Source: Methylococcales symbiont of Hymedesmia sp. n. MRB-2018 (GTDB lineage Bacteria > Pseudomonadota > Gammaproteobacteria > Methylococcales > Methylomonadaceae). From it: a stretch of DNA of 64,000 nt. The translations under genes were made by a program, and so were the position numbers. Below the pieces are notes generated by a model. That model saw nothing but the letters and a program-made list of their open reading frames with translations, was not told the DNA's origin and ran no database searches. Of the stretch, positions 1 through 42,451 are shown piece after piece. Each line of letters begins with the position of its first letter. The first letter of the stretch is position 1. The stretch covers positions 1 to 64,000 of the forward strand of contig QPIN01000054.1 in NCBI GenBank assembly GCA_003666385.1. The letters are read 5' to 3'.

Positions 1-1541
1 CACCGATGACCTCACCCTCCCAGTCAACAGCAGAGACATCATCTTCAAGACTAAGATAATCACCACTGCCCCATAGAGTTATATTATTAATACCGTAGTT
101 ATTATCCCCTGCTACATTCAGCGGTATAAGGAAAGAAGAATTATTAAACATTTGCTTAATATTCAATCCGTCTTGTAACGTGGTGCGAGCATTGTTATTG
201 ATTAGCTCTTGCAAGCTTGAGCTACCGCCTAGATTAAGGCTGGCATCGGTGTCTGTTGGCGAGCTAGAAAATGCTTGGTCAATGCGGTTGCTGATATTGT
301 CTACTGTTATTTTTGCTGTTGCTCTGAATAGTTGTGGCAAGATCGCATTTAATATTTGTGCTTCGGCTGCGGCTGTTAGTCCTAGACTGTCGTCCAGAAC
401 CTTAAAGGCGTAAAATGTAAGCCCTGAAGATTCACTTATGCTTATTTCAATAGCGACTTCGTTGTTGCCAGTGCTGAAAACATTACCCCCACTGATACTT
501 ATCCGCACGCTATAAGTGCCAAGTGCTTGATTAAGAATGTCTTTTGGGTATAGTTGTGAATTGACGTCTATGGTGAATAAATCATTGTCGGCGTCTCCGT
601 TTCCAGCGACCAGTGTATAAGTCGGGTTTTGGTTGTTTAATCTGGAATTTTGTCCTTCAAGTGTAGGGGTGATCCTGGCAGGACTATCTGTTACATACCA
701 GCGACCGAGGTTTTGGTTAAAGTTGGAAGTGGCGAACATATTAGTCATATCATCTACGCTAGAAACATCCCATCTGCTAATGTCTTGGTTAAATAGGATG
801 GCACCGTTGAACATATTATCCATCTTCGTTACGCTAGAAACATCCCAGCCACCGATGTCTTGGTTAAATGTTTCGGCAAGACCGAACATACTGCCCATAT
901 CCGTTACTCTGGAAACAACCCAGCCACTGATATCTCGGTCAAAGGCGGTGGCACCGCTGAACATGGTCCGCATAATCTCTACGTTGTCAACCTCCCAGTT
1001 ACTGATGTTACCGTCAAAGACCTCGGCTTCAAAGAACATGCCTAGCATACTGGTTACACCACCAAGCTTTGGCGCATCAGTAGCACTCATTCTCATATTC
1101 TTGGCACGAGCAAATGCAGTCTCCATACTTGTCCAATCAGCAGTACCCCATTGCTTTACGTCTATTAATTTTGCTGCATCCCTATCATCTGGATCTTGAT
1201 CTTGATCAGTACCTAAATTAAACCTAGTGATGGTGTTTGAGGCTTTTACTATGTAGGTCTTAGCCTCCATGTAGGTGCATGTAGGATAACCGCCAACTAT
1301 TACAGGAAGAACGGGGGGGGTCGCGCCACAGTCAAGGTCGTTGGTGCCGATGCCCTCACTTGGAAAGGTTAGCACACGGTCATCCCCAGACATATCCCAC
1401 ACGGTAATAAATTCGTGCGAGTTTGCCTGTGCGCTAGCGCTGAATAAAAAGCTTGATAGTACTAATAGAGTGGTAGCAATGAAGCGGCTTGGGGGGGGGG
1501 GGGGGGGTAGATATTTGTTGGGATAATGGTTGTATAAACAT
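1..1541 (-). CDS. BspA-repeat surface protein, likely autotransporter; start region out of frame (phase-variable), 3' end outside window
   Basis: Reading the minus strand from an ATG at 1541 (GGAG about 10 bases upstream) gives a short N-terminus, then a run of 17 C (1491-1507 on the plus strand as G). After it, in another frame, comes a clear signal-peptide core (SRFIATTLLVLSSFLFSASA) and an uninterrupted frame to base 1. That frame contains five BspA/DUF285-type repeats of about 25 residues (core MFxxAxxFNQDIxxWDVSSVTD, roughly 690-1070), a cadherin-like stretch (NPTYTLVAGNGDADNDLFTI, about 560-620), and near the edge LWGSGDYLSLEDD and VDWEGEVIG, which resemble the start of autotransporter beta-barrel domains. 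With 17 C the start and body are out of frame; 16 or 19 C would join them. Probable role: secreted or surface adhesin. The barrel assignment is from memory of the family and is tentative; the repeats and frames are read directly. Confidence 0.75.
1491..1507 (-). repeat. C17 homopolymer at the start of the surface-protein gene (slippage tract)
   Basis: There are seventeen consecutive G on the plus strand, 34 bases inside the reading frame that starts at 1541. Tract lengths equal to 1 modulo 3 (16, 19) join the ATG to the signal peptide, whereas the 17 seen here does not. This is the classic arrangement for on/off switching by slipped-strand mispairing. A sequencing error in the homopolymer is the alternative. 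Confidence 0.85.
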
Positions 1542-1944
1542 TTTCTTAATCTCCGTAATTTAATAATGGGGGATCAGCCCATAAGTGCAACACTTTTATT
1601 TAAAAAATAGTCTTTGCCAGTTAACCTTGCAAAAACTCCAAGGGGCATTATACCCTAAACATTTCCTGGGTCTATTATTCATTAATTTGTGGCTATGGTA
1701 TAAGGGCATGGGGGCATGGGGGAAACCACAAGGGATTGCCTCTAATATAAGGGCAACCACAAGGGATTGCCCCTACGGTTAATAAACCATGAATAGATAC
1801 CCAAATAAGCTCTTTCTCTAGCTTTCAATGTTGGTAATAAGCCATATTCCTGTGCTATTTTAACTCCCCAGTTTCTACTACCAAATAGCTCCATATCCTA
1901 ATTTAGCGGAGATTCATGGCTAATAAGGAAAACTTAAACCCCAT
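1542..1944. other. Gap with repeats: IS-end-like fragment and a direct-repeated hairpin
   Basis: No gene is seen. Bases 1578-1619 (CCCATAAGTGCAACACTTTT and onward) recur with few changes at 36155-36199. Bases 1728-1774 hold two copies of ACCACAAGGGATTGCC; the second, starting at GGGCAACC, can fold back on itself (GGGCAA with TTGCCC). The rest is AT-rich without recognisable signals. Confidence 0.6.
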
Positions 1945-18459: not shown

Positions 18460-18470
18460 CCCCCCCCCCC
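18460..18470. repeat. C11 homopolymer upstream of nrdJ
   Basis: There are eleven C in an AT-rich intergenic stretch, 76 bases before the first NrdR box. It is a possible slippage site that would change spacing rather than reading frame. Confidence 0.7.
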
Positions 18471-36004: not shown

Positions 36005-36154
36005 CAGTTCAGTCAGGCGGTGGAGTTGTGTGGGCGACAAGGAATAATGGATATTAGACCTGCAACAAAAGATGAAATCAGTCATCAACATATACATCGG
36101 GAAGGCTGTAATCATTAATTTTTTTGCTTAGGCATGAGTACTTGGCGAATTCAA

Positions 36155-36199
36155 CCCATAAGTGCAACACTTTCATTTAAAAATTATGAGTCTATGCCA
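36155..36199. repeat. IS-end-like fragment, second copy
   Basis: It begins CCCATAAGTGCAACACTTTC and is nearly identical to 1578-1619. Its last part (GTCTATGCCAAAT) also matches the ends of the 61-bp element at 42631. No transposase is near, so it is a solo remnant. Confidence 0.6.
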
Positions 36200-42442: not shown

Positions 42443-42451
42443 CCCCCCCCC
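42443..42451. repeat. C9 homopolymer
   Basis: There are nine C in AT-rich DNA, 79 bases upstream of the broken small gene at 42531. Confidence 0.7.

Follow-up and report, generated by a model that had tools for sequence, protein, structure and literature searches.

A multi-copy autotransporter family with a shared poly-C tract and probable slippage switching in a methane-oxidizing sponge symbiont

The gene at the left end of the 64,000-nucleotide stretch analysed here (the window) is, judged by its sequence, a member of a classical (type Va-like) autotransporter family. The members appear to share leader, signal peptide and C-terminal barrel, in most cases a poly-C tract as well, and to differ in their passengers, which consist of PARCEL/DUF285, Ig-like or other modules. 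As an explanation of the data as a whole, a multi-copy family switched by slippage at this tract is very probable. The window starts with the first base of contig C1. The genome, 2.22 Mb in 63 contigs (C1, C5, C63a and similar C-numbers denote contigs of this genome or the gene copies on them), holds 20 leader (5') ends and 22 distinct barrel (C-terminal) ends of the family. A pmoA-family match in the genome agrees with the earlier presumption that the organism is a methanotroph.

The features of the window gene are collected in Table 1. The original prediction, made from the window alone, of an ATG with a ribosome-binding site on the minus strand, a run of 17 C's and then a signal peptide in another frame is borne out at every point. 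The tract begins 34 nt past the A of the ATG and is directly followed, on its 3' side, by AAGCCGC. In the ON frame the putative signal peptide reads by eye as a basic residue, a hydrophobic core and an A-Q-A cleavage motif; its anchor motif occurs at 12 exact sites across the genome. Resetting of the tract in silico to n = 16 or 19 resulted in one continuous protein that exceeds 510 aa and reaches the contig end, and n = 15, 17 and 18 led to a stop after 25, 35 and 26 aa, respectively, exactly as predicted for 16 or 19 (one open protein) and 17 (off). As assembled (n = 17), the window copy is OFF, with the proviso that homopolymer lengths above about 15 obtained from short reads, the 17 of the window included, are uncertain. 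The downstream frame is open up to the contig end, 481 codons counted from the anchor. If the tract and the ATG 5' of it are disregarded, the first ATG, GTG or TTG in this frame is GTG 1402, by which point the signal peptide has already ended. By composition, 2.5e-7 runs of at least 17 C's or G's are expected in 64 kb. The RNA of the 5' leader folded no better than shuffled sequences (z 0.16).

Table 1. Features of the autotransporter gene at the left end of the window (positions are those of the window)
Feature	Position	Strand	Remark
Start codon ATG	1539..1541	-	Opens the leader peptide MFIQPLSQQIST(P)n; ATG context same in other tract-bearing copies
Ribosome-binding site GGAG	1551..1554	-	9 nt 5' of the ATG; conserved in almost every copy of the leader
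Leader coding segment of 34 nt, 5' of the tract, conserved	1508..1541	-	Sequence comparison of leaders
C17 homopolymer, putative switch	1491..1507	-	Frames join only at n = 1 mod 3 (16, 19)
Putative signal peptide SRFIATTLLVLSSFLFSASAQA	1424..1489	-	In the downstream frame, not that of the leader
Five PARCEL/DUF285 (BspA-like) repeat units, ~25 aa each	692..1048	-	Profile matches
Linker and first barrel residues	2..379	-	96% aa identity to L028; the PF03797 match in L028 starts approximately there
Upstream dispersed repeat with TATAAT-like -10 (1652-1647)	1574..1696	-	Occurs in the leaders of the family and at roughly ten sites unrelated to it

The genome contains 19 C runs of at least 10, compared with about 0.5 expected by composition, and 14 of them sit at the same place in the family leader, where they make up 12 loci. 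The lengths at the family loci are 10, 11, 11, 12, 12+18 in tandem, 13, 17, 17, 18 and 22; further long tracts measure 50, and 60 and 29, the last-named beside corrupted sequence, and the lengths of 22, 50 and 60 are unreliable in that these tracts adjoin visibly corrupted sequence. At one and the same position, the 12 loci thus have tracts of different length. Five more leaders (C53, C19, C39, C31, C20) stop at or before the tract and are incomplete because their contigs end there. In three diverged copies (C9:13388, C35, C40) the signal peptide is in frame without a tract. The largest member, C63b, has a frame of 4893 aa. In the copy on C21 (C21:29637-29706; L011 3638-3707), C runs of 12 and 18 occur together with two incomplete signal peptides in tandem, and the copy is in frame as assembled; the doubling may result from recombination at the tract or from chimeric assembly. 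The family copies probably explain much of the fragmentation of the assembly.

Outside the autotransporter family, the window contains a C11 run at 18460-18470. A 728-aa ORF that we take to resemble a ribonucleotide reductase starts about 170 nt downstream of this run, which may be a promoter-spacing tract. A C9 run at 42443-42451 is intergenic, after a short ORF that by eye is presumably a remnant of a HicA-type toxin, and has no apparent role. The dispersed repeat of about 120 nt with the TATAAT-like site recurs at window 36151-36199 and is also present in a same-genus genome (G001) and in a bin labelled Cycloclasticus (G090); a C10 run adjoins the copy at C3:31381.

The reading frame across the tract could be determined in nine copies. 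Three are ON (C5, n = 13; C45, n = 12; C21, n = 12+18) and six are OFF (the window, n = 17; C63a, n = 11; C6, n = 17; C11, n = 10; C23, n = 11; C55, n = 50 as assembled), in line with random switching, which predicts that one third are ON. The copies with 10-13 C's alone already show both phases. The out-of-frame products end within about 12-77 aa. The downstream frames of the OFF copies are free of stops over 187-1001 codons (C23 is too short to judge), and changing the tract by a single C switches a frame that is intact in all other respects. Pairwise dN/dS values of the linker in the four OFF copies long enough to include it (window, C63a, C11, C55) are mostly 0.1-0.4, like those of the ON copies, which suggests that the OFF copies are kept under constraint; because the linker spans are short and the paralogs are not independent, these values are supportive and do not amount to a formal test. 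On/off control by slippage had originally been proposed for one gene. The comparison across paralogs strongly favours a switch and places it in a family of about twenty, whose differences in tract length, being differences between paralogs, could be fixed.

The five BspA repeats predicted for the window gene correspond to five PF03382/DUF285 units (residues 119-237 of the 467-aa open frame). The passenger matches PF03382/DUF285 with an E value of 1.1e-47 (161 bits, cut-off 25) and PARCEL/TIGR02167 with 37.4 bits (cut-off 30), which identifies it as a PARCEL repeat domain that may be adhesive. The predicted barrel was found in relatives. L028 (LWTM01000052, a contig from sample N) encodes a full-length relative of 1106 aa with PF03382, PF05345 (putative Ig domain) and the autotransporter beta-domain PF03797 (32.8 bits, cut-off 26), all above cut-off, and at the level of profile matches it proves an architecture of PARCEL/DUF285 repeats, Ig-like domain and autotransporter barrel. 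The window copy overlaps the linker of L028 and roughly 20 residues at the start of its PF03797 domain; there the contig ends, at base 1, and cuts off the barrel. AlphaFold, given the barrel as a single sequence, yielded a pLDDT of 31, and sequence searches of the PDB with passenger and barrel gave no match.

The homologues in G001 have a leader beginning with MLKTNIT and no tract. The native copies of G090 have the same leader as those of the window's genome, with short runs of C4 to C9 such as TCTACTCCCCCCACACACACAGCC or ACTACCCCCCCCCTACACACAG, and around the run the G090 sequence is a close match to copy C11 of the window's genome (TCTA C10 ACACAGCCTGCGG). Read most simply, this series, from no tract (G001) over C4-C9 proto-tracts (Cycloclasticus bin) to long tracts (window's genome), means that a proline-codon proto-tract grew into a switch in the window's lineage. 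The presence of at least four different right-hand flanks after the tract implies several expansions or recombination at the tract.

L028, the sole contig from an independent specimen, apparently of the same species, has a C25 tract and a corrupted leader; the 5' end of its counterpart is unassembled in the window's genome. It is 99.4% identical to the window's genome over 2253 nt including flanking genes, and in view of the 99.5% identity of its 3' flank to contig C62 we reject the label of its record, which makes it a Cycloclasticus gene. Similarly, G090:C56 (L149) is 98-99% identical to C63b. Both contigs are placed in the public MAG of a Cycloclasticus sponge symbiont. With identities of 98-99.5%, which for L028 include a flank outside the family, they probably come from the methanotroph of the same sponge and were mis-binned. 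The other copies of the Cycloclasticus bin, several of them on contigs of 78-248 kb, have barrels about 75-81% identical to those of the window's genome (dS ~0.4-0.5), compared with 59% identity (dS ~2) for nadC. That the barrel is far closer than nadC points to horizontal transfer, on a thin baseline of one gene. The passenger of L028 (167-1455) has no match above about 77% among the sequences fetched from the window's genome; its passenger may have been replaced between strains, or a contig may be missing.

Copies out of frame might be pseudogenes of a shrinking symbiont genome, killed by tract indels and now decaying. The genome is reduced (2.2 Mb), decay is clear in at least one copy that has a tract, the remnant pseudogene C9:13945, whose signal peptide is scrambled, and C22:32028 holds fragments of DUF285. 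However, the long frames of the OFF copies without internal stops, the low dN/dS of their linkers, the conservation of the promoter/RBS leader and the finding that every OFF copy is one tract step from ON make decay an improbable account of the family. The OFF states could also be artefacts of assembly or sequencing, the true lengths all being in frame and the genes constitutively on. The contigs of the five incomplete leaders break at or shortly before their tracts, and garbage adjoins the long tracts in C42, C63b and L028. Yet short reads can resolve runs of 10-13 C's, and it is in this range that copies with 10, 11 and 11 C's are OFF by one base and copies with 12 and 13 are ON; moreover, the tract recurs in 12 loci and in the independent specimen, so that we regard such an artefact as decidedly improbable.

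Rescue at the RNA level, by slippage of the RNA polymerase or by ribosomal frameshifting, would provide some full-length protein from every allele, and the tract would tune its amount. Homopolymer slippage does occur in transcription too, but it is best known there on A/T runs. Ribosomal shifting at poly-G/C was one option suggested for the lipoproteins of M. agalactiae (PMC2824730). Such rescue, however, leaves unexplained why long tracts occur only in the window's genome, and it has very little probability. More weight is due to the proposal that recombination between copies is the main source of variation, with the poly-C runs as crossover seams and the effect on the frame secondary. Leader and barrel are highly alike among the copies and the passengers differ, in C21 two tandem leader/signal segments are joined at a C run, and L028 agrees with the window's genome at 98-99% identity in its leader, the end of its barrel and its flank, in contrast to its passenger. 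But the counterpart of that passenger may be merely unassembled and C21 may be a chimera, and recombination would coexist with a frame switch rather than replace it; as the main source of variation it is unlikely.

In the preferred explanation, a family switched by slippage, slipped-strand mispairing in replication would change the length of the C run. Every third length would fuse the start codon to the signal peptide, resulting in export and surface display, and the other two would yield a peptide of 12-77 residues with nothing exported. The additional codons of the ON state would be prolines only, located in the n-region of the signal peptide, and tract length would be tolerated in threes. 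As steps of three C's add only prolines before the basic residue, ON proteins of varied tract length should be exported alike. A dozen copies that switch independently would furnish a clonal population with mixed surface coats, which the sponge host, co-resident symbionts or phages would face, with a presumed benefit to the symbiont. Slippage in living cells, surface display, adhesion and advantage are what we infer from the comparison of sequences.

The family resembles known systems in several respects. In Neisseria, poly-C-switched autotransporters, NalP and AusI/MspA, are established, and AutA/AutB of Neisseria meningitidis have AAGC repeats just past the start codon (PMC5472700). NalP and AusI/MspA share with the window's family ON/OFF slippage of poly-C inside an autotransporter coding region, and AutA/AutB share the position of the repeat at the 5' end. 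The Neisseria set, however, comprises a few unrelated genes with proteases as passengers, whereas the window's family is a single duplicated one of about twenty, with one shared switch and PARCEL/Ig-type passengers, in a likely beneficial sponge symbiont. In the repeat-protein families of Mycoplasma (PMC2996958; drp family, PMC2824730), which likewise are scattered multigene families with PF03382/TIGR02167, a homopolymer at the N-terminal coding end was proposed to switch expression via frameshift. Those bacteria are wall-less and anchor the proteins as lipoproteins, in contrast to the Gram-negative barrel and the longer tracts, shared family-wide, found here; no common ancestry of the two switches is implied.

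The methane-oxidizing symbiont of Hymedesmia (Stylopus) methanophila has a genome of 2.0-2.2 Mb with a 14.6-kb ORF, leucine-rich and Ig-like domains, autotransporter beta-domains and eukaryote-like proteins (PMC6474228). Together with a likeness to proteins of Cycloclasticus sponge symbionts, these traits match the window's genome, which most likely belongs to this symbiont of a deep-sea sponge. Its giant autotransporters are probably the genes of the window's family, and the 14.6-kb ORF is probably C63b with its 4893 aa. The main text of that paper makes no mention of homopolymer tracts, slippage, frameshift or phase variation. It reads the likeness to Cycloclasticus proteins (98% identity) as convergence; the identities given above suggest that the likeness stems instead from mis-binned contigs and horizontal transfer. 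Slippage contingency loci and the PARCEL and autotransporter parts are known. In the literature consulted, no precedent was found for their combination, for so many copies under a common switch or for the symbiotic setting.

It is conceivable, though we hold this view only tentatively, that the dozen or more giant autotransporters are a reduced, vertically inherited, beneficial symbiont's own recent phasome, whose tracts grew from a proline-codon proto-tract and whose passengers are exchanged between fixed leaders and barrels to give combinatorial surface variation. For a beneficial symbiont of an animal, and a reduced one, a phasome that spans a whole gene family would be new; the mechanism is known from Neisseria and Mycoplasma. 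Most known contingency loci belong to pathogens or commensals exposed to adaptive immunity, and the sponge has innate immunity only. If our interpretation is correct, a large phasome of a single family in a nutritional sponge symbiont would mean that mutualists also hedge their surfaces, and the copies with no tract, a proto-tract and a long tract would form a natural series for the origin of a switch.
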